This document shows, in pieces, positions 8,925 to 37,238 of a stretch of DNA of 46,030 nt (positions are counted from its first letter, which is position 1; each line of letters starts with the position of its first letter). This stretch comes from Pseudonocardiales bacterium. Lineage in GTDB: Bacteria; Actinomycetota; Actinomycetes; Mycobacteriales; Jatrophihabitantaceae. A model generated the notes under the pieces. It ran no database searches and was not told the DNA's origin. It worked only from the letters and a program-made list of their open reading frames with translations. The stretch spans positions 1 to 46,030 of the forward strand of contig JAVEEN010000294.1 in NCBI GenBank assembly GCA_030840445.1, written 5' to 3'. A program made the position numbers and the translations under genes.

Positions 8925-9397
8925 AGCGGTTCGTCGCTCGCTCATACCGCTGCCGAGGCGTGAGCATCACGCCGGCCAGGGGCCATCGGGCCCATCGGTA
9001 GCGCCGTAGCCTGCCGGCCCTGAAAAGTGGCCTCTTCGCTCGAAAACCGCGGGCAGCACTCTTTCTCACCTCAGACCTCGCCGTGACCAATCCGGCTGGC
9101 GCGCCAAGGGTCGCAGCTCGCTGATCACTCAGTGCGGCGGGACTTGGGGCGAAGGGTGTTCGAACGGGCGCCAGCTCGGGCGAGCGTCCGGTTGAGTTCG
9201 ATGCGGATTTCGCGTACGCAGCTCTGTTTCCGGTAGGTAACAGATTGGCATTTTGAATCCAAAGCGTTGACACCTACTTGGGGTTTCTGGCACGCTCGAG
9301 CCCTCGCACATATTGCATTCAGAATCCACAGACTATATCAAGCCGGCCGGGGCCGGAGAAGTTTTCGGAATTTTCCCGACGAACGGAATTGAGGAGC

Positions 9398-11158
9398 ATG
9401 ACCGAGCACCAGGAGTCCGAGCGGCAGCCGAAATACGGGTCCGATCTGATGGCCGATGCCATCGAGGCCCTCGGAGTCAAGTACATCAGTCTCAATCCCG
9501 GTGCCACATTTCGCGGACTGCACGACTCGTTGGTCAACTATCTCGACAACTCCGTCCAGATGATTGAATGCCCGCACGAGAAGCTTGCCGTCGGCCTTGC
9601 CCATGGCTACACCAAGGCGTGCGGCGAGCCGATGGCGGTGGTCCTGCACAACCTGGTCGGACTGTTGCACGGTGCGATGGGGATTTACTACGCGTATTCC
9701 GATCGGGTCCCGGTCTACGTCTTCGGTGGTTCCGGTCCGATGGACCATGATCGCCGCCGCGCCTACATCGACTGGGTGCATTCGGCCAATACTCAGGGCG
9801 GCGCGGTCCGCGACTACACCAAGTGGGACTACGAGCCCACCTCGATCGCGTCTGTTCCGCCGGTGATCACCCGCGCCGCGCGAATCGCGATGACCGAACC
9901 GCAGGGCCCTGTCTACGTGGCGCTGGATGCGGCGTTGCAAGAGGATGAGCTGCCGACGGACGGCCCGCCGATCGAGCTGATGAAGTTCTCGATGCCGTCC
10001 CTGATCGCTCCCGATCCGGCCGCGCTGCGGTTGGCGGCTGAGAAGCTGGTCGCCGCTGAGCGTCCGGTGTTCGTGACCGGCTTCGCCGGACGCGACCCGA
10101 AGGCATTCGACCAGCTCGTCGAGCTGACTGAGCTGCTCGGCGCAGGTATGCAGGACAACTTCTACCGGCTCAACTTCCCGAACCAGCATCCGCTGGCGGT
10201 CTTCGGGACGAAGAGCCTGGAACGTGCCGACTGCGTCGTGCTGCTCGATATGAAGGACACCGAGAAGGCAACCACGACCGTCGACTCGATCACCCGCAAG
10301 ACGACCTCACGGATCGCCACGGATGCCACGGTCATCGACATCGGCTTCAACGATCTCGGTATCGGCGCCTGGAGCGACGACTACGGAGCCCCGCGCAACG
10401 CTGATCTGATGATCACGGCGGACACCAAACTGGCGTTGCCGCAGCTGATCGATGCCTGCCGCGAGCTGATCAAGTCCGAGACCGGAGTGGCCCCGCGCAA
10501 CGACGACTGGCGCACCGAGATCGCCCAGTTGCGGGCCAAGACCAGGGCGAAGTGGCAGGAACAGATCGAAGAATCGTGGGACGTGCAGCCGATGTCGGCC
10601 TCCCGTCTTGCGTCCGAGGTGTGGGAAGTCGTCAAGGACTACGACTGGGTGCTCACCGCGAACACCGCCGAAGAATGGGCATTGAAGACCTGGAACTTCG
10701 ACAAGGCCTATCGCTACCCCGGCCGTCAGCTGGGGACGGCCACCCAGATCGGCATGTCACTCGGCGTGGCGCTTGCTCACAAGGGCACCGGACGACTCGT
10801 GGTCGACCTGCAGCCGGACGGCGACCTGATGTTCGACGCTGGGGCGCTTTGGGTTGCTTCCTACTACAAGCTGCCGATGCTCGTTGTCATGGTGAACAAC
10901 CGTGCGTACTACAACGACTGGGAACACCAGGAACGCATCGCTGTGGACCGCGGCACGGACATCGAGAAGGCCTACATCGGCATGGAGATCGACAGTCCGG
11001 CGCCTGACTTCGCCACGCTTGCCAAATCGTTCTCGTGGTATTCCGAAGGACCTATCACCGACCCGAACGACCTGCAGGCCGCGGTCCGCAGGGCTGCTGA
11101 ACACGTGATGACCACCGGCGAACCGGCGCTCGTGGATGCAGTGATTCGGCGGCGTTGA
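9398..11158 (+). CDS. Thiamine-diphosphate-dependent enzyme (acetolactate synthase/decarboxylase superfamily), paralogue 1
   Basis: YISLNPGATFRGLHDSLVNY; CPHEKLAVGLAHGYTKA (catalytic Glu region); QPDGDLMFDAGALWVASYYKLPMLVVMVNNRAYYND (ThDP/Mg motif). Confidence 0.8.
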   Translation: MTEHQESERQPKYGSDLMADAIEALGVKYISLNPGATFRGLHDSLVNYLDNSVQMIECPHEKLAVGLAHGYTKACGEPMAVVLHNLVGLLHGAMGIYYAYSDRVPVYVFGGSGPMDHDRRRAYIDWVHSANTQGGAVRDYTKWDYEPTSIASVPPVITRAARIAMTEPQGPVYVALDAALQEDELPTDGPPIELMKFSMPSLIAPDPAALRLAAEKLVAAERPVFVTGFAGRDPKAFDQLVELTELLGAGMQDNFYRLNFPNQHPLAVFGTKSLERADCVVLLDMKDTEKATTTVDSITRKTTSRIATDATVIDIGFNDLGIGAWSDDYGAPRNADLMITADTKLALPQLIDACRELIKSETGVAPRNDDWRTEIAQLRAKTRAKWQEQIEESWDVQPMSASRLASEVWEVVKDYDWVLTANTAEEWALKTWNFDKAYRYPGRQLGTATQIGMSLGVALAHKGTGRLVVDLQPDGDLMFDAGALWVASYYKLPMLVVMVNNRAYYNDWEHQERIAVDRGTDIEKAYIGMEIDSPAPDFATLAKSFSWYSEGPITDPNDLQAAVRRAAEHVMTTGEPALVDAVIRRR

Positions 11159-20207: not shown

Positions 20208-20921
20208 ATGGCCGGCGAGCGGATCTGGGATCAGTTTCTGACCGAGCGGGACAAGGCCCATCTGGGTGCACTGGGGCCCCGAACGTCCTATGGCTTCGGC
20301 GCGAAGCCTGCCGTGCTGTCGGTAGACAACTATCGCGGCGTGGTCGGTGACCGCCCGGAGCCGTTACTGGATGCGATCAGCACCTGGCCGAACAGCACCG
20401 GCCTCGAAGGCTGGCAAGCCCTCGAGCGGATCACCGAGTTGTTCGGTGCGGCCCGCAAATCGGGGGTGCCGGTGATCCATGTCAGCGGCGCTGCATCTGA
20501 GGTAACCGGCGTCCCGCGGTGGCGCAGCCACGGTCTGAACCCGGAGCCGGTCACCGAAGACCGGCACCGGCGGCGTTACGACATCGTCGAGCAGGCCAGA
20601 CCGGAGCCGGGTGAGGTGATGCTCACCAAGACAGCGCCCAGTGCGTTCTTCGGCACGCCGCTGGCGGCTTACCTTATCGGCCGGGGCATCGACACCCTGA
20701 TCGTGTGCGGCGAGGCCGTGAGCGGCTGCGTGCGGGCCACGGTGGTCGACGGCTGCAGCTATCGCCTGCGGATGATCGTGGTCGAGGACTGCGTCTACGA
20801 CCGCCACCAGGCGACCTGGGCGATGAACCTGTTCGACATCCACCACAAGTACGGCGACGTGGTCTCGCTGCAGTCCACTCTGGACTGGCTGGCCTCCTAC
20901 CGGCCGGAACCAGCGGCCTAG
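20208..20921 (+). CDS. Isochorismatase-family cysteine hydrolase, N-carbamoylsarcosine amidohydrolase-like
   Basis: AVLSVDNYRG (Asp), LTKTAPSAFFGTPLAAYL (Lys), GEAVSGCVRATVVDG (Cys), WAMNLFDIHHKYGDV. Confidence 0.75.
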   Translation: MAGERIWDQFLTERDKAHLGALGPRTSYGFGAKPAVLSVDNYRGVVGDRPEPLLDAISTWPNSTGLEGWQALERITELFGAARKSGVPVIHVSGAASEVTGVPRWRSHGLNPEPVTEDRHRRRYDIVEQARPEPGEVMLTKTAPSAFFGTPLAAYLIGRGIDTLIVCGEAVSGCVRATVVDGCSYRLRMIVVEDCVYDRHQATWAMNLFDIHHKYGDVVSLQSTLDWLASYRPEPAA

Positions 20922-22216
20922 CCGCTGGCCTCGGCGACCGGGGCGGCCGAGGCCCTAGCGCCGGCCGTAGTGCCCCCACCTGAGCGCGCGACCGACATCG
21001 CACGGCTGGTCGCGCCGACGAATCGCAGCGCGATGATGGGGAAGAGTACGAAGATCAAGATCACCACCGTGGGACTCACCACCGAGGCAAGCCCGCCGGC
21101 CGTGAGGGAGAACAGCGGCCGAAGTCCGAACATCGACATCGAGAAGAAGCTCATCACCCGACCCTGTAGCGCCACGGGACTGAGCACCAGCAGACCGGAA
21201 CTCAGGATCGGAATGTTGAAGGCGAACGCCAAGCCGACCGGAATCGTGACCGCGATACCCATGACCACATTGCGCGACAGCGCCAACCCGACCATCCCGA
21301 GTGCCTGCATCAGAAACGCTGCCACCAGCAGCTTGTTGCTGGAGAACCGCCGCGAGAGCGCCCCGAAGGCGAAAATGCCCGCCGTTCCCCCCGCGCTGTA
21401 ACCCATCACCAACAAACCGGCCGAGTCGGCGTCGAGATGCATGCTGCCACTGGTGAGCGACGGCGCCAGGGTTCGAAGGCATTCCACCGAGGCGTTGCTG
21501 AGGGCGACCGCGCCGAGGATGGCAAGGATGGCCGGCGACCCGAGTGCGAAGCGAAGCCCTTCCCGTCCGCTGCCCTTCAATGCACTGGTCCGTACCTGGT
21601 CGTTGACCCTCAGGAGCGCGGTGCTGACGACCGGTGCCACGAACGAAGCCGCGTTGACCCCGAAGGCCCAGGTCGGGTTGGCCACCGCGAGGATCGACGC
21701 GGACAGTATCGCGCCGCCCAGCTGACCGATGTTGAATTGCAGCGAGTTCATCGCGGTGGCATGCGCAAGATCGCTGCGCGGGACGACAGCGGGCAACATG
21801 GCCTGAAACGCCGGCTTGCTGATCGAGTAGGAGGTGCCCAGCAGGAACGCCATCGCGATCAGGATCGGGGCGTTCAGCCGGCCCGTGGCGGCTGCGACGG
21901 TGATCATGGTCGCTACCACGGCTGAGAGCAGCTGGGTGACGATGATGACGGCGCGACGGTCGAACCGGTCGGCGATCATGCCTCCCACGATCGAGAAGAG
22001 GAAGATCGGGGCGAAGGTGGCGACGTTGAGCAGGCCCACCAACAGCGTGGAATGGGTGTGGTCCAGGATGTACACAGAGCCGGTCACGTTCTGCAGCCAG
22101 GTACCGATGTTGGACAGCAGACCCCCGGACCAGTACAGCCGGAAATTGCGGGTTCGGAACGGATTGGGCGGTCGATTCAGGGCCTTTGAGTTCACAGCCG
22201 ACATCGGCCCTGCCAC
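20918..22216 (-). CDS. MFS transporter (EntS/MFS_3-like exporter)
   Basis: NPFRTRNFRLYWSGGLLSNIGTWLQNVTGSVYIL; GGMIADRFDRRAVIIVTQ; start GTG 22216 or ATG 22204. Confidence 0.8.
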   Translation of the reverse strand: MAGPMSAVNSKALNRPPNPFRTRNFRLYWSGGLLSNIGTWLQNVTGSVYILDHTHSTLLVGLLNVATFAPIFLFSIVGGMIADRFDRRAVIIVTQLLSAVVATMITVAAATGRLNAPILIAMAFLLGTSYSISKPAFQAMLPAVVPRSDLAHATAMNSLQFNIGQLGGAILSASILAVANPTWAFGVNAASFVAPVVSTALLRVNDQVRTSALKGSGREGLRFALGSPAILAILGAVALSNASVECLRTLAPSLTSGSMHLDADSAGLLVMGYSAGGTAGIFAFGALSRRFSSNKLLVAAFLMQALGMVGLALSRNVVMGIAVTIPVGLAFAFNIPILSSGLLVLSPVALQGRVMSFFSMSMFGLRPLFSLTAGGLASVVSPTVVILIFVLFPIIALRFVGATSRAMSVARSGGGTTAGARASAAPVAEASG

Positions 22217-22250
22217 GACGACGTCGACATCGTTCTCCTTCGCAGGTCGC

Positions 22251-22278
22251 TTGACTTATTAATTGGATACCATATCCT
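22251..22278 (+). promoter_or_regulatory. Putative promoter TTGACT-N16-TATCCT with embedded palindromic operator GGATA-CCA-TATCC (22265-22277)
   Basis: Read directly; upstream of SRPBCC/Mo-hydroxylase operon and between divergent genes. Confidence 0.55.
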
Positions 22279-22307
22279 TTAACCAACCCAAAGACCTAGG
22301 AGCAGTT

Positions 22308-22769
22308 GTGCCATCTGCGAGTTTCACGCGGGAAATTGTGGTCACCGCGGACCCGGCTCGGTGCTGGGAGGTGTTGACCGACGTCCCGCGCCTCGTCGAC
22401 TGGGTGAGCATCGTTGATGATGCCAAGGAGATCGCCCATCTCGAGCGGTACACCGCCGTGTTGATGGACCGGCTCGGCCCGTTCAAGCTCAAAGCCGATC
22501 TCGACATCGTGGTGAGCGAGGTCGAGCAGGGCAAGCGGATCCGGGTCCAGGCCAATGGCGAGGACCGACAGGTTGCCTCGCGAATCGGCATCAACGCCGT
22601 CCTGGTGCTCAACGCACGCCACGATGGTCAGACGGCCATCGGTGTCGATGGCACCTACGAGGTCATCGGACGGGTAGCCACCATGGGGGCCGGGACGATC
22701 CGCACCAAGGCGAACAAGGTCATGGACGAGTTCTTCAGCCGCGCCACCGTAGAGCTGGGATCCGCCTAG
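22308..22769 (+). CDS. SRPBCC / CoxG-like protein
   Basis: PSASFTREIVVTADPARCWEVLTDVPRLVDWVSIVDDAKEI...GPFKLKADLDIVVSEVEQGKRIRVQANGED; GTG 22308 after ctaggagc RBS; precedes FAD subunit. Confidence 0.75.
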   Translation: MPSASFTREIVVTADPARCWEVLTDVPRLVDWVSIVDDAKEIAHLERYTAVLMDRLGPFKLKADLDIVVSEVEQGKRIRVQANGEDRQVASRIGINAVLVLNARHDGQTAIGVDGTYEVIGRVATMGAGTIRTKANKVMDEFFSRATVELGSA

Positions 22770-23572
22770 TGCTGGGGACGTTCACGGTATCGCGCCCGAC
22801 CGAGCTCGGGCAGGCTCTCGACCTCATCGGCGAGGAGTCGCTGGCGTACTGGGGCGGCACCGAGCTGTTCCTGGCCATGAAGATGCAGCTGCTCATGCCG
22901 GGCAACCTCGTCGATCTCAAGGGAATCCCGCAACTGCGGGAGATTCGGATGAGCGGTGACGAGCTGGTGATCGGCGCCGGAACAACCCATGACGAGATTG
23001 CCACCGATCCGGGGGTCCGCGGCGCTGCCGGCCTGCTGTCCTCGGTCACCAGTCGGGTCGGCAACTCGCGGGTGCGGGCCCAAGGGACCATCGGCGGCAA
23101 TCTCTGCTTCGCCGAACCCCGTTCAGATCTGGCAACCGTGCTGCTCGCGCTGGATGCAATGGTGCAGCTGCAGTCCTCGTCAGGAGAACGTCGCCTCAGC
23201 ATCACGGAGTTCCTGCTCGGCCCCTACTGGACGGCCAGGGAACCCGAAGAGCTCCTGGTGGCGGTGTGCGTACCTATCCCCGCCGCCACCGGTGTCTACC
23301 TGAAGTTCCAGTTCACCGAGCGCCCCAGCGTGGCTGTGACGGCTGTCGTGTCAGATGGCGGCCAGCCGTGCCGGCTGGCGATCGGGGCGGTGGCGGACGT
23401 GCCGGCGCTGCACACCGCTGAGAGCTGGGATGAGTTCGACGCGGCAAGCATTGCCGCCGGCATCGAGCCGGTGCCGGACCTGACCGGCTCCGTGACCTAC
23501 AAGAGGCACCTCACCGAGGTGCTAGTGAAGAAGGCCATTGCGGCCGTTCGGGCAGGTGAACGTGATGGCTGA
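22769..23572 (+). CDS. Molybdenum hydroxylase FAD-binding (medium) subunit
   Basis: FTVSRPTELGQALDLIGEESLAYWGGTELFLAMKMQLLMPGNLVDLKGI; RVRAQGTIGGNLCFAEPRSDLATVLLALDA. Confidence 0.9.
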   Translation: MLGTFTVSRPTELGQALDLIGEESLAYWGGTELFLAMKMQLLMPGNLVDLKGIPQLREIRMSGDELVIGAGTTHDEIATDPGVRGAAGLLSSVTSRVGNSRVRAQGTIGGNLCFAEPRSDLATVLLALDAMVQLQSSSGERRLSITEFLLGPYWTAREPEELLVAVCVPIPAATGVYLKFQFTERPSVAVTAVVSDGGQPCRLAIGAVADVPALHTAESWDEFDAASIAAGIEPVPDLTGSVTYKRHLTEVLVKKAIAAVRAGERDG

Positions 23573-24065
23573 CGGTGGAGAACTCGGCAGGACTGTCCGA
23601 GCGAATGTCAACGGCACCGAGGTGTCGCGATATGTGGCAAACCGGAGCACGCTCGCGCAATTCCTGCGGGACGACCTGGGGTTGACCGGGACCAAGGTGA
23701 GCTGCGAGCTGCAGGTGTGCGGTGTCTGCTCGGTGCTCGTCGACGGCTCGCCGGTGAGTGCCTGTACCTATCTTGCGGTCGACATCGACGGCCGCAAGGT
23801 GGAGACCGTCGAGGGCCTGGCGGACGGCGACACGCTGCACCCGCTGCAGCAGGCGTTCGTCGAGGAGTTTGCTCTGCAGTGCGGGTTTTGCACGCCGGGC
23901 TTCCTGATGATGTCGGTAGCACTCCTGCGCCGCAATCCCGATCCCTCCGAAGAGGACGTCAAGGAATACCTGGACGGAAACATCTGCCGGTGCACCGGGT
24001 ACCGCCCGATCGTCGAAGCGGTTCAGCTGGCCGCGACCCGGATGCGTGAGGACGGTCATGTCTGA
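23565..24065 (+). CDS. Molybdenum hydroxylase 2Fe-2S (small) subunit
   Basis: CELQVCGVCSVLVDGSPVSAC and QCGFCTPGFLMMSVALL...GNICRCTGYRPIVEAVQ cysteine motifs. Confidence 0.95.
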   Translation: MADGGELGRTVRANVNGTEVSRYVANRSTLAQFLRDDLGLTGTKVSCELQVCGVCSVLVDGSPVSACTYLAVDIDGRKVETVEGLADGDTLHPLQQAFVEEFALQCGFCTPGFLMMSVALLRRNPDPSEEDVKEYLDGNICRCTGYRPIVEAVQLAATRMREDGHV

Positions 24066-26358
24066 CCAGCGGACGCAGGTCGGTGTCCCGGTACTACGCC
24101 GGGACCTGTACGCCAAGGTCACCGGTGCGGCCACGTACACCGTTGACGTCAGCCCGCCGGGCACCTTGCACGCGAAGGTGGTCCGGTCCTCCCACGCGCA
24201 CGCCCGGATCACCCGCATCGAGCGTGACGCAGCGCTCGCTACTCCCGGCGTGGTCGGCATCGTGGTCGCGGAGGATCTGAAGGACCTCTTTCCGAGGTTC
24301 GGTCACATCGTTCCCGACCACTGCATCCTGGCCATCGGGAAGGTGCGCTACTACGGCGAGCCGGTAGCCCTGGTGGTGGCTGAGAGTCTGTTCGCCGCTG
24401 AGGACGCCGCGGCGGCCGTCGAGGTGCATTACGAGGAGTTGGACGCCGTGATGACGGCCGGCGATGCGCTGGCCGACGGCGCCCCGCTGGTACACGAGGA
24501 GTTCTACCGCGCCGCCACCGACGAGTCCTTTGCCGCCATGGCAGCGGCGCCGACGGAGGACGGGGACGGCGGGGCTCGCGACAACGTCGCACACACCGTG
24601 GAGCTCGAATGGGGCGACGTCGATGCGGCGTTCGCCGATGCGCACCTGGTGGTCGAGAACGAACGGGTGCACTACCCGATGCTCTACGCCTATGCGATGG
24701 AGCCGTACAACGCCGTGGCCGATTTCCGGGATGGCCGGCTGCACGTGACCAGCACGGCCCAGCATCCGTTCATGGTACGTACTGATCTGGCCCGGATTTT
24801 CGATCTGCCGTTGTCCCGGGTACGCGTCGAGGTGCCCTACCTCGGCGGCGGGTACGGGTCGAAGTCATACACGAAGGTCGAACCGCTGGCCGCGATCGGA
24901 TCCTGGGCCACGGGTCGTCCGGTGAAGCTGGTTCTCGACGTCGAGGAATCGATCTACACCACCCGGGCAGACTCCGCCGATGTCACGGTCCGCTCCGCCT
25001 TCGACGCCGAGGGCCGGATCATCGCGCGGGAGTTCGACGTGGTGCTTGATTCGGGTGCTTACGCCGATAACAGCCCACTGGTACTGGCAAAAACCGTGAA
25101 TCGCTGTTTCGGGCCATACCGGGTCCCGAACCTGCGTGCCCGTGGCCGGTCGGTCTATACCAACACCTCGCCCGCGTCGTCCTACCGCGGCTTCGGCGCA
25201 CCGCAGGGATCGCTGCCGGGAGAGCTGAACATCGAGAAGGCAGCGGCCGAACTCGGCCTGGACTCGTTCGAGATCCGGCGCCGTAACCTGGTTCGGCCCG
25301 GTGAAGAAATCCTGCGCGGTAAGCGGGGCATCGACGCCGACTTGCTCGGCGATCTGGAAATGCTCGCCAACTCCCTGCAGTCACACGCTCGCGAGGATTC
25401 AGCGATCGGTATCGGCTTCACGGCCTCGGACGCCGGGGCGTTTCCGGTGTCCACCGCTCAGATCCGACTTCAGGTCGACGGCTCGGTGCTGGTGCTCAGC
25501 GGCTCCACCGAGATGGGTCAGGGCAGCGAGTCGGCACTGGCGCAGATCGCCGCGGAGGAGCTGGGGGTGCCGCTGGATGCAGTGAGCGTCGCGCAGTCCG
25601 ACACCGGCACCGGCCCGTACGAGCGGACCACCGGCGCCAGCCGTACGACCACCCTGGCCGGCCTTGCCTTGCAGCGCGCCTGCACCGAGGCCAAGCAGAA
25701 GGTGGTCGCAATGGCCGCCGAAGTGTTCGGACTGCCGGAGGCGGACATCGCGTCGGTCCCAGGTGGCGTGCAGGTCGCCGATCGGCCCCGGGTGCCGTTC
25801 GGCGAGGTGATCAGCCGCTGGTTCGGTGCCGCTGCCGGTGAGGTCACCGGTGTGGGCCTGGTGCGTCGTGAGGGCGTCACTCAGAAGATGCCGCCGTTCT
25901 GGGAAGTCGGGGTGGTGGGCGTCGATGTCGAGGTCGACCCCGACACCGGGGCGGTGAAAGTGCGCCAGCTTGCCACGGTGGCCGACGTCGGCTTCGCGAT
26001 CAACCCGCGCGCGGTCGAGGGTCAGGATCTGGGCGCGGCAACCCAGGGACTCGGTGGGGCACTGTTCGAAGAACTCATTTACGACGGGCCGCAGTTGGTC
26101 AATCCGAATATGGTCGAGTACCGGGTGCCGCGGATGCAGGATCTGGCGGAGCGGATCGACACGATGATCGCCGAGCGCGGCGATGGCGTCGGCCCGTACG
26201 GAGCAAAGGGCGCAGGGGAGGGAACTCTGAACCCGATGGCCGCTGCGGTCGCCGGTGCGGTCGCCAAGGCGATCGGGCGGTGGCCCACCAGGGTTCCGCT
26301 GACGCCGGAACGGGTCTGGCGCCTGATGAACGATCTGCCTGAGGAAGACGGGGAATAA
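24058..26358 (+). CDS. Molybdenum hydroxylase large (Mo-cofactor) subunit, xanthine dehydrogenase/aldehyde oxidase family
   Basis: HAHARITRIERDAAL; YLGGGYGSKSYTKVEP; SPASSYRGFGAPQG; STEMGQGSESALAQIAAEELG; GAKGAGEGTLNPMAAAVAGAVAKA. Confidence 0.9.
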   Translation: MSDQRTQVGVPVLRRDLYAKVTGAATYTVDVSPPGTLHAKVVRSSHAHARITRIERDAALATPGVVGIVVAEDLKDLFPRFGHIVPDHCILAIGKVRYYGEPVALVVAESLFAAEDAAAAVEVHYEELDAVMTAGDALADGAPLVHEEFYRAATDESFAAMAAAPTEDGDGGARDNVAHTVELEWGDVDAAFADAHLVVENERVHYPMLYAYAMEPYNAVADFRDGRLHVTSTAQHPFMVRTDLARIFDLPLSRVRVEVPYLGGGYGSKSYTKVEPLAAIGSWATGRPVKLVLDVEESIYTTRADSADVTVRSAFDAEGRIIAREFDVVLDSGAYADNSPLVLAKTVNRCFGPYRVPNLRARGRSVYTNTSPASSYRGFGAPQGSLPGELNIEKAAAELGLDSFEIRRRNLVRPGEEILRGKRGIDADLLGDLEMLANSLQSHAREDSAIGIGFTASDAGAFPVSTAQIRLQVDGSVLVLSGSTEMGQGSESALAQIAAEELGVPLDAVSVAQSDTGTGPYERTTGASRTTTLAGLALQRACTEAKQKVVAMAAEVFGLPEADIASVPGGVQVADRPRVPFGEVISRWFGAAAGEVTGVGLVRREGVTQKMPPFWEVGVVGVDVEVDPDTGAVKVRQLATVADVGFAINPRAVEGQDLGAATQGLGGALFEELIYDGPQLVNPNMVEYRVPRMQDLAERIDTMIAERGDGVGPYGAKGAGEGTLNPMAAAVAGAVAKAIGRWPTRVPLTPERVWRLMNDLPEEDGE

Positions 26359-28401: not shown

Positions 28402-28449
28402 CCCAACCGGGCGGTGGCCGAATCGCCGTCGAGCAGAGGAATCGAAGCC

Positions 28450-30057
28450 TTGAGTAGTCATCACCATCACCACGATCACCACCACGATGACGAGGTGGAC
28501 TTCGACGACGATGAGGTCGAGAACCCGGCTGATCCGAACGGCATGCCGGATCAGATCCGATTGACCACGGTTGGCATCGACATCGGCTCGGCCACCACCC
28601 ATTTCTTGCTGTCCAGACTGACCTTGCGCCGGCTCGGTGTCGCGTTGATGAGTCGCTACGAGATCGTCTCCAAGGAAGAGCTCTACCGTTCGGGCATCCT
28701 CTTCACGCCGTACCGGTCCTCGACCGAGATCGACTCCGATCAGCTCAACGCGTTCTTCGCCCAGAACTTCGAGCAGTCGGGCGTCGGCTACGACGAGCTC
28801 GACACCGGCATCGTGATGCTCACCGGCGAGGCTGCCCGCAAGACCAACGCCAGGGCGATCGCGACGATGTTCGCCGAGACCATGGGCAAGTTCGTGTGCA
28901 CGTCTGCCGGGCACCACCTCGAGGCTCGGATGGCCGCCAGCGGTTCAGGTGCCCTGCTTGCCTCACGTGAAGCGGGTTCGACCATCGTCAACGTTGATGT
29001 CGGTGGCGGTACCACCAAGTTCACCCATATCCACAAGGGCGAGATCGTCGGTACCGCAGCACTGAACGTCGGCGGCCGGTTGGTCGCGATCGAGGACGGT
29101 CAGGTGGTGCGCGTCGACGAGGCCGCGCGTCGTGCCGCCGAGGTCGCTGGCGTGTCGCTGATCCTGGGCCAACCACTGTCAACCGAAGACCAGCGGACGC
29201 TGAGCGCGACACTCGCAGGTGCAGTCATCGAGTACCTGACCAAGGATCCGTCCGAATTCTCGGTGTTCACCGATGCGCTGCTGCTTACCGATCCATTGCG
29301 CGGGCTGCCGGCCATCGACCAGATCGTGTTGTCCGGTGGTGTGTCCGAGTACATCAATGCAGACATCGCCGAGACCCGTGACCTCGGGCCGACCCTGGCG
29401 GCGGAGCTGGTCGCACAGGCAACGGCCGCAGGCCGGAATCTACGACCGGCCGCCGAGCGGATGCGGGCAACGGTGGTCGGACTGTCGCAGTTCACTACCC
29501 AGCTGTCGGGTGACACGGTCTTCGTGTCCTCGGCTCAGGCGACCCCGCGGCTCAACCTTCCAGTGGTAGAGGTAGGTATCGAGCACCTGGGCGAGGAGGT
29601 CAGCGCACCGGAGGTCGCCGAGGCGATCCATCGCGGGCTGGTTCTCGGCGGGCGGGAGGATTTGCTCGATCCGGTCGCGATCTCCATCGACTGGAAGGGC
29701 AAGCCGTATTTCCGGACGCTCACCGCCATAGCCGAGGGTGTCGCGCTCGCAGCCAAGCTGCACCTGCCCGACGGAGCGGTGGTCGTGGTGCTCTCGCAGG
29801 ATTGTGCGCGATCACTTGGCCATGCGCTGCGGGCGGCCGTGCCGACCGAGCGCGAGATCGTATGCATCGACGGCCTCAGCCTTCGCGCGAACGACTTCAT
29901 AGATGTGGGGGCGCCCATCCACAACGGCCGGGTGCTTCCGGTTGTCGTGAAGACCCTGGTCTTTCCCGAAGTCCGGCAGGTCTCCGCCGACACGGATGCC
30001 GACGGTACCGAAAGCCGGGAATCGTCATATATCGAGGTCGGTGGACAGATTCTTTGA
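28450..30057 (+). CDS. EutA-like ethanolamine ammonia-lyase reactivating factor family protein (ASKHA ATPase) with His/Asp-rich N-terminus
   Basis: LTTVGIDIGSATTHFLLSRLTLRRLG; DTGIVMLTGEAARKTNARAIATMFAETMGKFVCTSAGHHLEARMAASGSGA; IVNVDVGGGTTKFTHIHKGEIVGTAALNVGGR; TTG 28450 after agagga. Confidence 0.8.
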   Translation: MSSHHHHHDHHHDDEVDFDDDEVENPADPNGMPDQIRLTTVGIDIGSATTHFLLSRLTLRRLGVALMSRYEIVSKEELYRSGILFTPYRSSTEIDSDQLNAFFAQNFEQSGVGYDELDTGIVMLTGEAARKTNARAIATMFAETMGKFVCTSAGHHLEARMAASGSGALLASREAGSTIVNVDVGGGTTKFTHIHKGEIVGTAALNVGGRLVAIEDGQVVRVDEAARRAAEVAGVSLILGQPLSTEDQRTLSATLAGAVIEYLTKDPSEFSVFTDALLLTDPLRGLPAIDQIVLSGGVSEYINADIAETRDLGPTLAAELVAQATAAGRNLRPAAERMRATVVGLSQFTTQLSGDTVFVSSAQATPRLNLPVVEVGIEHLGEEVSAPEVAEAIHRGLVLGGREDLLDPVAISIDWKGKPYFRTLTAIAEGVALAAKLHLPDGAVVVVLSQDCARSLGHALRAAVPTEREIVCIDGLSLRANDFIDVGAPIHNGRVLPVVVKTLVFPEVRQVSADTDADGTESRESSYIEVGGQIL

Positions 30058-30117: not shown

Positions 30118-31209
30118 ATGGCCGAACGCAAGACTGAGATCGAGTTCGATACTCACTCGTACGTGATCTACATGCGGGACAAGTACGACGCGTACCGGAA
30201 TTGGTTGAAGCAGGAGAATCTCCCCGCGTACAACGGCGAATTCATCCAGGACGTGCGTGAAATCGAACTCGGCGACTGGCCGCGACGCAAGGCCCGCGGC
30301 GCATACCTGGAGTTCCGCGACCAGCAGGTGTCCGAGGCTTACGTCCTGGAGATCCCGCCGGGTGGCAGCACCGAGCCGCAGCGGCAAATGTTCGAGGAGA
30401 TCGTCGTCATTGCCGAAGGGCAAGGCGCAACAACGCTGTGGTGGGACGACAACAGTCCGAAGCACACGTTCGAGTGGACTCGCGGCAGCCTGTTCGCCAT
30501 CCCGCTCAACTGTAACTACGAGCATTTCAATACCAGCGGTACCGAGCCGGCACGGTTCATGGCCTTGACCGATGCGCCGGTCACCTGGGAGCTCTTCCGG
30601 GACCAGGAATTCGTCTTCAACAGCAACTTCCAGTTCCGCGACAGGTTCGATCCGGATATCTCTGACTTCTACAGCAAGCCCGGCAAGTACCTCACCGACT
30701 ACTACGGCGGTATTCTCGATACCGCGTTCATCGCGGATCTGCGCGAGGTAAAGCTGGTTCCGCGATCCAAGCGCGGTGCCGGAACGATGAACATGTACAT
30801 CCACCTGGCCGGCAGCACGATGTTCGCGCACATCTCCGAGTTCCCGGTAGGCACCTACAAAAAGGCACACCGGCACGGCCCGGGCGCGCACATCTACACC
30901 CTCGACTCCACCGGCTACACCCTGATGTGGAAGGACGGCGAGGAGCCGCAGCGCTTCGATTGGTCCGAAGGCAGCGTGATCTCGCCGTCGGCCGGCTACT
31001 GGCACCAGCACTACAACACCGGCACGAAACCGGCGAAGTTCGTGGCGCTGCACGCCTCGATCGCGTTCGGCGGTGGCTCGGAGAAGAACGTCGAGCAGAT
31101 CGACTTCCGCTACGAGGACGCATTCCTGCGCGATATGTACGTCGAGGAATGCCGCAAGAACGGCGTCGAAGTGAAGATGGAGAAGATCGACAAATCCCAC
31201 CATGACTGA
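30118..31209 (+). CDS. Bicupin protein, possible dioxygenase/isomerase
   Basis: N-domain EAYVLEIPPGGSTEPQRQMFEEIVVIAEGQG; C-domain YKKAHRHGPGAHIYTLDSTGYTLMW and SPSAGYWHQHYNTG. Confidence 0.7.
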   Translation: MAERKTEIEFDTHSYVIYMRDKYDAYRNWLKQENLPAYNGEFIQDVREIELGDWPRRKARGAYLEFRDQQVSEAYVLEIPPGGSTEPQRQMFEEIVVIAEGQGATTLWWDDNSPKHTFEWTRGSLFAIPLNCNYEHFNTSGTEPARFMALTDAPVTWELFRDQEFVFNSNFQFRDRFDPDISDFYSKPGKYLTDYYGGILDTAFIADLREVKLVPRSKRGAGTMNMYIHLAGSTMFAHISEFPVGTYKKAHRHGPGAHIYTLDSTGYTLMWKDGEEPQRFDWSEGSVISPSAGYWHQHYNTGTKPAKFVALHASIAFGGGSEKNVEQIDFRYEDAFLRDMYVEECRKNGVEVKMEKIDKSHHD

Positions 31210-33001
31210 TCAGGTGCTCGCTGACGATCCAGCAACCATGGACTTCGTCAGCGAGCAGCCCGATCCGGCCAACATCGAAACGCCGGCCGGTTACACCGAT
31301 GAGCAGCCCGCGTTCGGTTCGGACCTGGTCGTGTCGGCGTTGCGCAGGCTGGGGTATCGCTATCTCCCGATGAACCCGGGCTCGAGCTGGCGGGGCCTGC
31401 ATGATTCGGTCGTCAACTACGGGGCAAACCGCGATCCACAGCTGTTGCTTTGCCTGCACGAGGAGATTGCGGTCTCGCTGGCGCACGCCTATGCAAAGGG
31501 CAGTGGGTTACCCGCGGCAGCCGCGGTGCACGACTTGGTCGGTTTGATGCATGCCTCGATGGCCGTGTACAACGCGGCATGCGATCAGGTTGCATTGCTC
31601 TTGCTCGGCGGTAGCGGGCCGGCGGATCCGACCAAGCGCCGGCCGGTCGACTGGATCCACACCGCGAGCACCCAAGGCGACCTGGTGCGCGACTATGTGA
31701 AATGGGATGCCGAGGCGATCGTGCCCGAGGTATTCACCTCCACGATCGAGCGGGCGCATGCCATTTCCCGATCCGGTCCACCCGGTCCGACGTACGTCTC
31801 GCTGGATTCCGACGCGCAGGAGGTGGCACTTGCCGACGGCTGGTCAGAGCTGGCCAGCCCAAGCGCTGCCCACACCGACGTGATGTATCCGGATCCGGCC
31901 GTGGTTCGGCAGTTCGGATCCGCGCTGGCCCAGGCCCGCTCGGTCACGATCGTTGCCGGCCGCCAGGTCCGGGATCCCGCCATGACATCGTTGTTGATCC
32001 GGCTCGTGGAGGCACTCGGCGCGGCATATCAAGACGAGCGCAACACCGTGTGCTTTCCGACCTCCCATCCGCAGAACTGCACCGGTGATCGGACGGCGAT
32101 CGGCAACAGCGACGTAGTGTTGTGCATCGGCGTGGGTGACATCCCCGGTCTGTTGGCGGGTCATGGGAGCACCGATGCACCAACCGTGCTCGAAATTTCC
32201 TACGGTGACCTCGGACTGCGGTCCTGGTCGCAAGAACGCGGGCATCACCCGATCTCCGATCTTCGGCTGGTGTCCGATCTGATCCCCGGGACGTCGGCGC
32301 TGCTCACCGAGGTGCTCTCGCGCATCGAGCCGGCACAGGCAGCCGATCGTGCCGCACCGGTAAGCGAGCGCGTGACCGCCCTGCATACCAAGCAACAGCA
32401 GAGCATCGCGGCCCGATGGGATGACGCGGTGGTCTCGCCGACGCGATTGGTCGGCGAGGTTTGGAACGCCGTGCGCGACATCGACTGGATGCTGGTGTTG
32501 CGTAATACCCGCAGCTTCCCAGAGGGCCTGTGGCAGTTCAACGGTGTGGGTGACTTCCTCGGACACTCGGTCGGCGCGGGCGTCGGCTACGGCCCAGGTG
32601 CGATGGTGGGCGGCTCGTTGGCCGCCAGGGATGTCGGACGGCTCGGCGTCGGCATCATCGGCGATGGCGATTTCCTGATGGCGGCAGGCGCGCTGTGGAC
32701 GGCGGTGCACTACCGGATACCGATGCTCATGGTGGTCAACGACAACTCCTCCTTCTACAACGATGAGGAACATCAGGCCGAGGTTGCCCGGCACCGAGGT
32801 CGGCCCGTGGAGAACTCCTGGATCGGCATGCGGATGGCCTCCCCGCGGATCGACATCGCCGCGCTCGCGCGATCCTATGGCGCTTATGCGACCGAGACGG
32901 TCGCTGATCCGGCGCGGTTGGCGGTCAACCTGGCCGTGGCTCGGGACGTGGCTCTGGCCGGCGGCGTCGCGGTGGTTCACGTCCATACGAGCCCAACCTG
33001 A
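31202..33001 (+). CDS. Thiamine-diphosphate-dependent enzyme, paralogue 2
   Basis: YLPMNPGSSWRGLHDSVVNY; CLHEEIAVSLAHAYAKG; IIGDGDFLMAAGALWTAVHYRIPMLMVVNDNSSFYND; ATG overlaps preceding stop. Confidence 0.8.
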   Translation: MTDQVLADDPATMDFVSEQPDPANIETPAGYTDEQPAFGSDLVVSALRRLGYRYLPMNPGSSWRGLHDSVVNYGANRDPQLLLCLHEEIAVSLAHAYAKGSGLPAAAAVHDLVGLMHASMAVYNAACDQVALLLLGGSGPADPTKRRPVDWIHTASTQGDLVRDYVKWDAEAIVPEVFTSTIERAHAISRSGPPGPTYVSLDSDAQEVALADGWSELASPSAAHTDVMYPDPAVVRQFGSALAQARSVTIVAGRQVRDPAMTSLLIRLVEALGAAYQDERNTVCFPTSHPQNCTGDRTAIGNSDVVLCIGVGDIPGLLAGHGSTDAPTVLEISYGDLGLRSWSQERGHHPISDLRLVSDLIPGTSALLTEVLSRIEPAQAADRAAPVSERVTALHTKQQQSIAARWDDAVVSPTRLVGEVWNAVRDIDWMLVLRNTRSFPEGLWQFNGVGDFLGHSVGAGVGYGPGAMVGGSLAARDVGRLGVGIIGDGDFLMAAGALWTAVHYRIPMLMVVNDNSSFYNDEEHQAEVARHRGRPVENSWIGMRMASPRIDIAALARSYGAYATETVADPARLAVNLAVARDVALAGGVAVVHVHTSPT

Positions 33002-33015
33002 TCGAAAGGTGTCCC

Positions 33016-34470
33016 ATGACGACTGAGGTCGTGAAGGAAGCAGAACTGTTCATCGGCGGTACGTTTCAACCGTCGGCCGGCGACGCCACGTTCGACACTG
33101 TCGATCCCGCGACCGAGCAGACGCTGGCGACCCTTCCCGAGGCGTCGTCGGTGGATCTCGATCGTGCGGTTGCGGCCGCGGTGGAGGCGCAGCGCGAATG
33201 GCGTGCATTGCCCTGGCAACGCCGAGCGCGGACCCTGCAGGCGATGGCCGACGCGCTGGAGGCGCACGCCGAGGAGCTTGCCCGGCTCGATGTTTCCGAC
33301 TCCGGAAATCCGATCGTCGCGATGCGTAACGACGTCACCGGCGGTTTGGCCGAGTTGCGCTTCTATGCCGGCCTCGCTTCCGAGGTCAAGGGCACGACCC
33401 AACCGGCCAGTCCTGACGCGGTGACCTTCACCGAGCGGACCCCGTATGGCGTGGTCGGTCGGCTGGTGCCGTACAACCACCCGTTCAAGGCCGCGGTCGG
33501 CAAGATCGCAGCACCATTGATCGCCGGTAACGCGGTGATACTCAAGCCGTCGGAACACGCACCGCTATCGGCACTGGAAATGGCCCGGCTGGTTCAGCCG
33601 ATCCTGCCTGCCGGGCTGCTGTCGGTGCTCACCGGTCAGGGTTCCGGTGTCGGGGCCGACCTGGTCGGTCATCCGCTGGTTCCGCGGATCTCGTTCACCG
33701 GCTCGGTTCCCACCGGCCGTGCGGTGCTGCGGGCTGCGGCCGAGCACATCAAGCACGTGAGCGTAGAACTCGGTGGGAAGAACCCGTTCGTGCTGTTTCC
33801 CGACGCTGATGTGCGCCGCGCCGCCCAAGCTGCGGTAAAGGGTATGAACCTGGCCCGATCCAGCGGCCAGTCCTGCCAGTCGACGTCGCGCATCTACGTG
33901 CACGCCGATGTCAAGGAAGCCTTCATCGACGCCCTGCTCGAGGTCGTGTCCGGCCTGCGCATCGGCGATCCGCATGACGAGGCCACCGACCTGGGTCCGC
34001 TGTCCTTCCGGGCGCACTACGACCGGGTGCTCGACTACATCGCTCGCGGCAGCAATGAGGGTGCCACGTTGTTGTCCGGCGGCGGTCGTCCGGCGGAATT
34101 CGACCGCGGGTTCTACGTCGCGCCGACGATTTTCAGCGATGTCGCCGATGACATGACGGTGGCCCGGGAAGAGATCTTCGGCCCGGTCATGAGCGTGCTC
34201 TCATGGACCGATCCCGAAGACGTCATCGCGCGTGCGAACAACACTCAGTACGGCCTGACCGCCAACGTGTGGAGCGCCAATGCTTCCCAGGCGCTGCGCG
34301 CAGCTCGTGCGATCGATGCCGGCTACGTGTTCGTCAACAGCCAGGGCAAGCGGCCGCTCGGAGCACCGTTCGGTGGCTGGAAGGCCAGCGGGCTCGGCAA
34401 GGGTTCCACCCTCGAGGAATTGATCTCCTACACCCGGGAGAAGTCGATCACGATCGAGATCGGGGACTAG
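33016..34470 (+). CDS. NAD(P)-dependent aldehyde dehydrogenase
   Basis: VPYNHPF; ISFTGSVPTGRAVL; HVSVELGGKNPFVLFPDADV; NLARSSGQSCQSTSRIYV (active-site Cys region); EEIFGPVMSVL. Confidence 0.9.
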   Translation: MTTEVVKEAELFIGGTFQPSAGDATFDTVDPATEQTLATLPEASSVDLDRAVAAAVEAQREWRALPWQRRARTLQAMADALEAHAEELARLDVSDSGNPIVAMRNDVTGGLAELRFYAGLASEVKGTTQPASPDAVTFTERTPYGVVGRLVPYNHPFKAAVGKIAAPLIAGNAVILKPSEHAPLSALEMARLVQPILPAGLLSVLTGQGSGVGADLVGHPLVPRISFTGSVPTGRAVLRAAAEHIKHVSVELGGKNPFVLFPDADVRRAAQAAVKGMNLARSSGQSCQSTSRIYVHADVKEAFIDALLEVVSGLRIGDPHDEATDLGPLSFRAHYDRVLDYIARGSNEGATLLSGGGRPAEFDRGFYVAPTIFSDVADDMTVAREEIFGPVMSVLSWTDPEDVIARANNTQYGLTANVWSANASQALRAARAIDAGYVFVNSQGKRPLGAPFGGWKASGLGKGSTLEELISYTREKSITIEIGD

Positions 34471-34513: not shown

Positions 34514-35812
34514 CTAGCGGGCCCGACGTGGTCGGATCGGCCAGCGTCGATTGCCCCGCCGGCGTAATGCCTCGGCGACCTGGGCGGCGGAGACGATTAC
34601 CGGCGTGCGCTGGTCCGCCACCGCCAACTGGACCGCTGCACAGGCATCGTCAATCAGATCCAGTGCGGCGTCCGGCCGGCGCCGGTGCGTCCGTGCGCTC
34701 AGCCGAGCGGCTGCCTGCAGCGCATCGTCGGTGATCTGAACTCCGTGGAACGACTGGTATTGGCTGCGCACGCCCCGCAGGATCTGCACCGTCTCGGCTC
34801 GGCTCGGTTCCCCGACCTCGATCACCTGGACCCGCCGGGCGAGCGGACCGGTCGGGCGGACGTGCTCGTGGTACAGGGCAGGCGTGGTGGCGCCGATGAC
34901 GGACAGCTCGTCGCGCGCCATCCCGGCCAGTAGTAGGGAACCGAGGTCCAGCCCACCCTCGGCAGCACCGGCTTTGACAATAAGGTGAAATTCGTCGATG
35001 AACAGGATCGTGCGACGATCTGACTCGGTCACCTCGCTCAGTAGGTCGTGCACCCGGGCTTCGAACTCGCCACGGTAGCGGGTGTTGCCCAGCAGACTCG
35101 CCAGGCTGACCGAGATGATGCGCGCGTCGACGAGTTGCTTGCCGACGTCGCCCTGGGCAATCCGCATGGCCAGGCCCTCGACCAGCGCCGTCTTGCCCAC
35201 CCCAGGTTCACCGACCAGCAACGGATTGCGCTTGCGGCGCCGGGACAGCACCCGAATCAGCTCATCCAGTTCCCGCTCGCGCCCGATCATCGGATCCAGC
35301 GCGCCGAACAGCGCCAGCCGGGTCAGGTCCAGCGCGTGTTCGGCCAGCAGGTCGACGCTTTCATCGGGTTCCACAGGCGCGGACTTCGAGATCGGTGAGG
35401 CCACCTCTGGCCGCATGGGCGATCCCGGTAACGGCGGCAGGAATGTGAGCAGCGTAGCGGCCACCGCAGAGGCGCTATCGCCTTGTCCGATCGACTGTTT
35501 GACCTCCGAGTAGGCGCGCAGTAGCTCGGTTGCCTCCGGTGTGATGACCAGTTGGCCGGTTACCGCGGCAAGGAAGCGGTGGTTGCGGCCAGGATGCCCG
35601 GCTGCCGGCGCGCTGGTCACGCCCAGCTCGCGTACGGCCAAATCGTCATTGATGCCCAATGAACGCCAATGCCGCCGGACGCCGGGCTCGCGCTCGAGCA
35701 GAGTGAGAGCCAGATGTTCGACCGTTACCTGCTGGCCGCCGCGCTCGGCGGCCAGCTCATGCGCCCGTCGCAGCAGCGACGGCTGGTCAGCCGGCTCGGA
35801 GCTTGGCGGCAT
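34514..35812 (-). CDS. Clp/Hsp100-like AAA ATPase with Clp_N-like domain and a single (D1-type) AAA module
   Basis: MPPSSEPADQPSLLRRAHELAAERGGQQVTVEHLALTLLERE; DPMIGRERELDELIRVLSRRRKRNPLLVGEPGVGKTALVEGLA (Walker A); RRTILFIDEFHLIV (Walker B); ELSVIGATTPALYHEHV; terminates after small domain. Start ATG 35812, not the ORF-track 36028. Confidence 0.8.
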   Translation of the reverse strand: MPPSSEPADQPSLLRRAHELAAERGGQQVTVEHLALTLLEREPGVRRHWRSLGINDDLAVRELGVTSAPAAGHPGRNHRFLAAVTGQLVITPEATELLRAYSEVKQSIGQGDSASAVAATLLTFLPPLPGSPMRPEVASPISKSAPVEPDESVDLLAEHALDLTRLALFGALDPMIGRERELDELIRVLSRRRKRNPLLVGEPGVGKTALVEGLAMRIAQGDVGKQLVDARIISVSLASLLGNTRYRGEFEARVHDLLSEVTESDRRTILFIDEFHLIVKAGAAEGGLDLGSLLLAGMARDELSVIGATTPALYHEHVRPTGPLARRVQVIEVGEPSRAETVQILRGVRSQYQSFHGVQITDDALQAAARLSARTHRRRPDAALDLIDDACAAVQLAVADQRTPVIVSAAQVAEALRRRGNRRWPIRPRRAR

Positions 35813-37179
35813 GATTGTCGAGCCAGGTCGCTGGATCGTGTGCGTAGTCGGCCCAGTAGTCACCGGGCTCGTTGACGCCGGGCAGCGGGGGAGTCCAGGC
35901 CTTCTGAAGCAGCTCCTCGGGATTGCCGAGCTGCTCAGCCAGTTCGACGACGCCCGGATCGGACAGCGCGCTGAGGCGGCCTTCCTCGACCACCGTGAAC
36001 TCCTCGCCGGCGGTGCTGGTAAGCACATAGGTCGGAAGCTGCAGGTGGATGTGCAGATGACCCCACGTGATGCCCCGCTCCGCTGCCCATGCCTCCGAGG
36101 GGTTTCCGTTGGCGGTGCCGAAGCCCATGTGCATGTAGCCCGAGCTCAGCCGCTCGAACATCGCGGCGTGCCCGGCGAGGGAGAACGCGTACGGCGGACG
36201 AACCATCTTCGGATGGGTACCGATTGCCGCCTCCCACAGCCAGAACAGGCCGGGTCCGGGGTGCTCGGGGTACTGGATGTTGCGAGTCTCGTGCAGCACC
36301 TCCCGCCACTTCTCGCCGTACTCGCCGCCGCCATCGATCTTGGTGACCTGGCCGTCCTCGACCGTCAGCGTGCAGTGCTGGAACGGCTTGCCGTAGTGGT
36401 TCAAGGTTCCCGCGACCACACCGTTCACAGTTGGCATCGGGTTGTACGGCGGCGTCGGGTATCCATACAGGTGACCGAGGTAGTACTTGTCGACGAATCG
36501 TCGACGCGAGTTGGTTCGCTCGTAGTGTTCGGCCGTCCAGTGCTCGGCTTTGAGCTCGAAGCGCAGGTCGGTCCCCTCGGGATCGGTCAGGTGCACGCTC
36601 GCGCCGCGACCGTGCTCCCAGATCGGCTTCCACGCGGTCTCATTGATTCGGTCCCAGAGCGGCCACGGGAATCCGGCGGCGGGGAAGGTCGCGCGGTGGA
36701 ACCACGGGATGCCTTCGTACCGGGTGCCGTCGAGAACCGGCAGCGGGCCGCCCTCGCCCTGCAGCAAAAGGGAATAGCCTTGCTTGACCGCGGCATCCTC
36801 GAGCCACTTCAGCCGGCCCTGCCACGCGTCGAAGGCAACATCACGCTCGATACCCGGGACGTTGTGCATCATGCCGCGAAATTCATCCAGCGGGTCGAGG
36901 GCGCGGTCGGCCACATCCACATGGAAGATGTCGACGGTCGCGTCCAGTTCGGTCATTGCCTCGACCAGTGCAGCGGTCACGGCCGGATCGTCGGTTGCCT
37001 TCTCCACCAGCAGCACCCGCTCGCCGGCCTTTATGTCATATCCTGCTGTCTTGGTCCGGTTGAGCGAGGGCCCGCGCACGATTGCGCGGGCGGCATCCAG
37101 CAGCGTCGGCGCGACTACGACCTGGTCTACCCGTGATTCGGTAGAGATTGATGCGGCGCCGTTTTCGGTTGAAGCCATA
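35787..37179 (-). CDS. M29 aminopeptidase / 2,5-dihydroxypyridine 5,6-dioxygenase (NicX) superfamily metalloenzyme
   Basis: YDIKAGERVLLVEKATDDPAVTAALVEAMTELDATVDIFHVD; ASVHLTDPEGTDLRFELK; PTVNGVVAGTLNHYGKPFQHCTLTVEDGQVTKIDGG; MFERLSSGYMHMGFGTANGNPSEAWAAERGITWGHLHIHLQL; probable start MASTENGAAS (ORF track opens at 37232). Confidence 0.6.
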
Positions 37180-37238
37180 TGTCTTCCCGATCCGTTGCTC
37201 GTGAGGATGCTCATCGGCCTGATGCGAGGCATCAGATA

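Follow-up and report, generated by a model that had tools for sequence, protein, structure and literature searches.

A conserved D1-only Clp/Hsp100 ATPase gene paired with an M29-like metalloprotein gene in an actinobacterial catabolic locus

The window, a 46,030-nucleotide stretch of DNA from a Pseudonocardiales bacterium (contig JAVEEN010000294.1), was found to encode a Clp/Hsp100 ATPase that ends after its first AAA+ module (D1). The gene is genuine, conserved and under purifying selection. As it always lay directly behind a gene for an M29-like metalloprotein, the ATPase is probably a private helper of that enzyme. The fuller reading, that it is a dedicated, protease-independent and Hsp100-derived remodeller of the upstream M29-fold-like metalloenzyme, was judged from sequence comparison to have an even chance of being correct.

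In class I Hsp100 machines the motor consists of two rings, and the activity of a lone D1 ring is known mainly from artificial truncations. A literature search found no natural D1-only protein with a Clp_N domain, which does not prove that none exists. With a conserved Clp_N-D1 protein that occurs naturally and is linked to a single enzyme, the lone D1 ring could be tested directly. If the reading is correct, the enzyme activases would gain a new AAA+ lineage, beside CbbX, MoxR/NorQ and rubisco activase, and there would be a handle on an uncharacterised family of M29-like metalloenzymes.

The D1-only ATPase gene

The features of the gene and its immediate neighbours are as follows.

34514..35812, minus strand: D1-only Clp/Hsp100 ATPase gene, 432 aa (ATG at 35812, stop at 34514); its parts are a probable, divergent Clp_N (~1–147), the D1 AAA+ large domain (~160–336), the lid (337–407) and an Arg-rich tail (408–432)
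35186..35212, minus strand: Walker A, GEPGVGKTA, ATPase residues 201–209
34985..35005, minus strand: Walker B, LFIDEFH, ATPase residues 270–276
34832..34837, minus strand: arginine pair R326/R327 of the ATPase, equivalent to R322/R323 of Thermus ClpB
35787..37232, minus strand: M29-fold-like metalloprotein gene, 481 aa, the upstream partner
33016..34470, plus strand: aldehyde dehydrogenase (ALDH) gene, converging on the ATPase gene

The D1-only reading frame given in the preliminary description was confirmed and placed on the minus strand. The two Walker motifs and the C-terminus that it had listed (RRRGNRRWPIRPRRAR) were all present, and the 26-bp overlap between the ATPase gene and the M29-like gene was correct. 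The reading frame remains open upstream as far as 36028, and the position of the start codon was taken from the orthologues. In Pfam, AAA (52.8 bits) and AAA_lid_9 (72.1 bits) both scored above their cut-offs, and Clp_N reached 20.4 bits against a cut-off of 20.7. Clp_N was matched in three of four orthologues at E<=1 (best 4e-5), and the N-domain was also covered by the alignment and by a fold match to Clp proteins from a low-confidence model. It is probably a divergent Clp_N. The top NCBIfam matches were ClpB, ClpV1 and ClpA over residues ~138–412, all far below cut-offs that are set for full-length proteins. The closest solved structure was Thermus ClpB NBD1 (4HSE; residues 152–400, E 6e-70). 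The AlphaFold model was built from a four-row alignment, had low confidence (pLDDT 58) and served for fold matching only; its match to ClpC spanned 428 columns and took in both the N-domain and D1.

The same architecture recurred in six genomes, including Pseudonocardiales, Sphaerisporangium and Propionibacteriales, with identities of 42–95%: 95% for genome G004, 73% for G007, 46–51% for G023, 53% for a Sphaerisporangium metagenome-assembled genome (MAG) and 42–46% for a Propionibacteriales MAG. These six are the only known instances, and at least four of them are in MAGs. The protein has a sensor-1 Thr, a pore-loop-1 Tyr, paired arginine fingers and intact Walker A and B motifs, and the corresponding residues K207, T208, Y246 (pore loop), D273, E274, T310 (sensor), R326 and R327 were invariant in all six orthologues. 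For the window gene, dN/dS was 0.14 against G004 and 0.19 against G007; more distant pairs were near synonymous saturation. The D1-only architecture noticed earlier is thus borne out by its recurrence, by purifying selection and by the invariant catalytic residues. In a tree with nine full-length Clp sequences the six ATPases formed a separate clade with 100/100 support, some branches being long, and the D1 module was 44–49% identical to that of the genome's own ClpC and ClpB. The idea of a plasmid-borne gene was rejected: among 72,556 plasmids all matches of the ATPase were below 60% identity, and the best ten carried Clp-type or unnamed AAA annotations, or none.

The D2 domain and the ClpP-binding loop had been described as absent, and this held. 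The stop codon of the ATPase gene is only 43 bp from that of the converging ALDH gene (34470), too short a distance to hold a D2. No D2-like sequence was found in the window, where the genome's own ClpB and ClpC matched the D1 stretch only. At the orthologous loci, these two proteins likewise matched only the N-D1 part, and D2 was absent from all six orthologues. With no D2, the ATPase also lacks the ClpP-binding IGF/LGF loop, which the genome's own ClpC carries as LGF at approximately residue 692. In the alignment of the six orthologues, no M-domain was present between lid and linker, and all six stopped at the D1-D2 linker position with an Arg-rich tail. Full-length ClpC (853 aa) and ClpB (876 aa) are encoded separately in the genome and are intact.

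A broken or mis-assembled ClpB/ClpC gene would also have a D1 that stops precisely where D2 should start. This explanation has next to no probability left and is already refuted: the ending is common to six genomes, dN/dS is low in the close pairs, no D2 sequence lies nearby, and the genome has both ClpB and ClpC intact. A frameshift or assembly error hiding a D2, raised in the preliminary description as the event that would overturn it, was excluded by the six-orthologue alignment, by dN/dS and by the search with the genome's own ClpB and ClpC.

Pairing with the M29-like gene

The ATPase gene lay directly behind an M29-like homologue of 72–98% identity, on the same strand, in all five genomes where the arrangement could be tested (the window, G004, G023 and the Sphaerisporangium and Propionibacteriales MAGs). 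The spacing varied between an overlap of 26 bp and a gap of 54 bp. In G007 the contig ends within the M29-like gene, and the ATPase gene begins 65 bp inside another contig. Co-occurrence, the lack of which had been named as evidence against the idea, was therefore strict with close homologues. In the window, the two genes form a unit of their own after the ALDH gene, and the catabolic genes on either side are encoded on the other strand. In the Propionibacteriales MAG they lie between a Mo gene and the EutA/cupin genes, co-directional with both, and in the Sphaerisporangium MAG the genes of the catabolic island are scattered along a 30.9-kb contig, where ~24 kb separate EutA/cupin from the pair. 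Since placement and strand differ between genomes, the pair has been kept together through rearrangement while its other neighbours changed. The ATPase gene had been described as sitting inside a catabolic operon; it does lie within a catabolic locus, but as part of a separate two-gene unit on the opposite strand.

Distant M29-like homologues (33–40% identity) were found in G001, G016, G043 and G106 with no such ATPase nearby. Because these proteins manage without it, the M29-like enzyme fold does not itself require the ATPase. The M29-like gene is rare, being found in 7 of 399 genomes of the order and in 2 of 397 across the phylum. The search for D1-only proteins covered these actinobacterial orders. 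When 498 genomes of two other orders were searched with profiles, only the genes of the two centre genomes appeared at 1e-235 and 1e-212; the next-best match (1e-98) was in a full-length frame. Among the matches listed below it, frames were full-length or nearly so except for a few short ones (e.g. 467 and 473 aa), and at least one short-frame match sits at a contig end. Across the same distant pairs, the ATPases were 43–54% identical and the M29-like partners 73–79%, so the ATPase evolves faster than its partner; its fastest-evolving part is the N-domain (30–36% in distant pairs).

In the partner protein, residues H254, H279, E360, H368, H392, H394 and H396 were invariant in all nine family members. 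No Pfam family scored above cut-off, M29 (PF02073) reaching 12.0 bits against a cut-off of 27. The structural model was poor (pLDDT 36), and its first seven Foldseek matches were PepS, AmpS and NicX, with a best E of ~1e-4. Alignment by hhalign to four true M29 proteins covered the metal-motif region weakly (P 0.044, probability 1.2). Nothing useful was obtained from single-sequence or profile searches against PDB chains, and no match was found in the 72,556 plasmids. The M29 aminopeptidases PepS and AmpS and the 2,5-dihydroxypyridine dioxygenase NicX resemble the partner in the order of motifs around the metal-binding histidines. The metal ligands of NicX are H265, S302, H318 and D320 (PMC7910607); in contrast to this HxD motif (H318/D320), all nine members of the partner family have HxHxH (H392, H394, H396). 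The partner is possibly a distant M29-fold relative of PepS and NicX, as judged from modelled fold and motif order. It is here labelled M29-fold-like because the M29 Pfam match is sub-threshold, the fold model poor, the profile alignment weak and HxD replaced by HxHxH.

The 33–40% homologues adjoin ABC transporter and LLM oxidoreductase genes. In G043 (L032, 223–2844), the homologue lies within the C-terminal half of one open frame of 874 codons, the first 420 of which matched no Pfam family; the frame may be either a fusion or merely open.

Proposed role of the ATPase and alternative readings

Given the strict pairing, the M29-like protein is the likely client of the ATPase. That the pore-loop Tyr and the Walker B Glu have both been kept favours an active, pulling ring, and the missing D2 and ClpP loop argue against proteolysis and processive unfolding. 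In the proposed mechanism, the D1 arginine pair would join the subunits in a ring that hydrolyses ATP, the M29-like partner would be recognised by the fast-evolving N-domain, and the pore-loop Tyr would pull on an exposed end or loop of the partner. Pulling may then allow metal to be loaded into the partner's site, or free the partner from a dead-end state, whether oxidised or inhibitor-bound. Without D2, the motor would be expected to give short, non-processive pulls, not full unfolding.

The nearest precedent is the NBD1-M construct of Thermus thermophilus ClpB (NBD1 structure 4HSE). Without N-domain and D2, it binds and hydrolyses ATP cooperatively and oligomerises; a trimer is the smallest hydrolysis-competent unit, and R322/R323, which correspond in the alignment to R326/R327 of the ATPase, are essential (PMC4239642). 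A lone D1 can thus be a working ATPase, although NBD1-M keeps its M-domain. The two proteins share a single D1 module and the arginine pair. They differ in that NBD1-M is an artificial truncation from which the N-domain was removed, whereas the ATPase is a natural gene product with a probable N-domain and no M-domain. Compared with the class I Hsp100/Clp proteins ClpB, ClpC and ClpA, the ATPase has a probable N-domain of the same type, the same D1 AAA+ module, a ClpA/B-type lid (AAA_lid_9) and the same Walker, pore-loop and arginine-finger residues. Unlike them, it has no M-domain, D2 or ClpP loop, falls in a separate clade, ends in an Arg-rich tail and is tied to one enzyme gene. As it descends from class I Hsp100 but is missing the defining D2, ‘D1-only variant’ describes it best.

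The role suggested earlier had been likened to that of CoxD/MoxR or CbbX. Like the ATPase, the rubisco activases CbbX/CbbQ and the MoxR-type NorQ/CoxD are single AAA+ proteins encoded beside the enzyme they would serve, but what they share with it is only the proposed role, namely active-site repair or metal-centre assembly. The ATPase belongs to a different AAA+ clade (AAA_lid_9) and probably has a Clp_N domain. MoxR membership was ruled out by the ClpA/B-type lid and by the lack of any MoxR-type Pfam match at E<=0.001; at E<=1, a single orthologue gave a weak bpMoxR match (E 0.036). CbbX membership was ruled out by the AAA_lid_9 lid together with the top NCBIfam matches to ClpB, ClpV and ClpA. 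No rubisco was present among the window proteins scanned, and no VWA domain, the hallmark of a MoxR-type partner, was matched among those scanned with Pfam. The Mo-hydroxylase is not supported as a client in the manner of CoxD, as the Mo gene is in the wider locus only and adjacency is to the M29-like gene alone.

The 33–40% M29-like proteins that occur without an ATPase count against a dedicated remodeller. The faster evolution of the ATPase fits a loose or species-tuned interaction with the partner, but would equally fit a different client. It is rather unlikely, but the most plausible of the rival roles, that the ATPase remodels another protein of the island (the EutA-like protein, cupin, TPP enzyme, ALDH or Mo-hydroxylase) and that its position reflects co-expression only. 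Consistent with this, the EutA-like gene occurs in five of the six ATPase genomes and is absent from three genomes with only distant M29-like genes, and in the window, G004 and G023 the locus further contains cupin, TPP enzyme, ALDH and Mo genes. However, the M29-like gene is the only invariant immediate neighbour of the ATPase gene. EutA/cupin lie on the same contig but far from the pair in Sphaerisporangium, and the Propionibacteriales MAG contains another EutA-cupin-TPP set (L041) with no ATPase gene in the surrounding 20 kb.

Two further roles would detach the ATPase from any single client. It may be a regulatory subunit whose Clp_N-D1 joins ClpC/ClpB, or competes for their adaptors, and so tunes proteolysis or disaggregation when the locus is expressed. 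Its alignment with the N-terminal half of ClpC/ClpB and the retained D1 interface arginines would allow this, but the intact, strictly conserved Walker B and the pore-loop Tyr argue for a motor activity of its own, D1 is only 44–49% identical to that of the cell's ClpC/ClpB, and there is no need for a general regulator to be linked to one particular enzyme gene; this role appears improbable. Slightly more improbable is a role in general stress protection, in which the ATPase would act as a chaperone (holdase or mild disaggregase) that shields the enzymes of the locus from toxic catabolic intermediates. The ancestry of the Clp family speaks for it, as does the stress tolerance given by some mobile Clp proteins, of which ClpK and ClpG are examples; those two are full-length. 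Against it stand the strict linkage to one gene, the absence of the ATPase elsewhere and the lack of an M-domain to couple to DnaK. A role in anti-phage defence was rejected, since PADLOC gave weak generic AAA matches to IetA/TRIP13 only and the context is metabolic.

The surrounding catabolic locus

One further gene of the same island is the following.

28414..30057, plus strand: EutA-like gene of the ethanolamine ammonia-lyase reactivase family (PF06277, 371 bits)

This gene accompanies a cupin gene and a TPP enzyme gene. Service to a resident ethanolamine ammonia-lyase was ruled out, as EutB was absent from all six genomes with the locus. The EutA fold is Hsp70-like. It is conceivable, though quite unlikely as a whole, that the D1 half of an Hsp100 evolved independently into an activase, that the Clp_N-D1 ring loads or repairs the metal site of a ring-cleaving enzyme of M29/NicX fold, and that the orphan EutA-like reactivase is a second dedicated chaperone, the two forming an enzyme-specific counterpart of Hsp70-Hsp100.

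An isochorismatase-family gene and Mo-hydroxylase genes occupy 20208–26358, and alpha/beta hydrolases are also present in the locus. The set of Mo-hydroxylase, isochorismatase-family, M29-like and alpha/beta-hydrolase genes recalls the order of activities in nicotinate degradation, an analogy that suggests a possible locus for N-heterocycle catabolism. Two different TPP-dependent enzyme genes are present on the plus strand (9278–11158 and 31202–33001), and the first of these is also kept in the Sphaerisporangium contig (80%).
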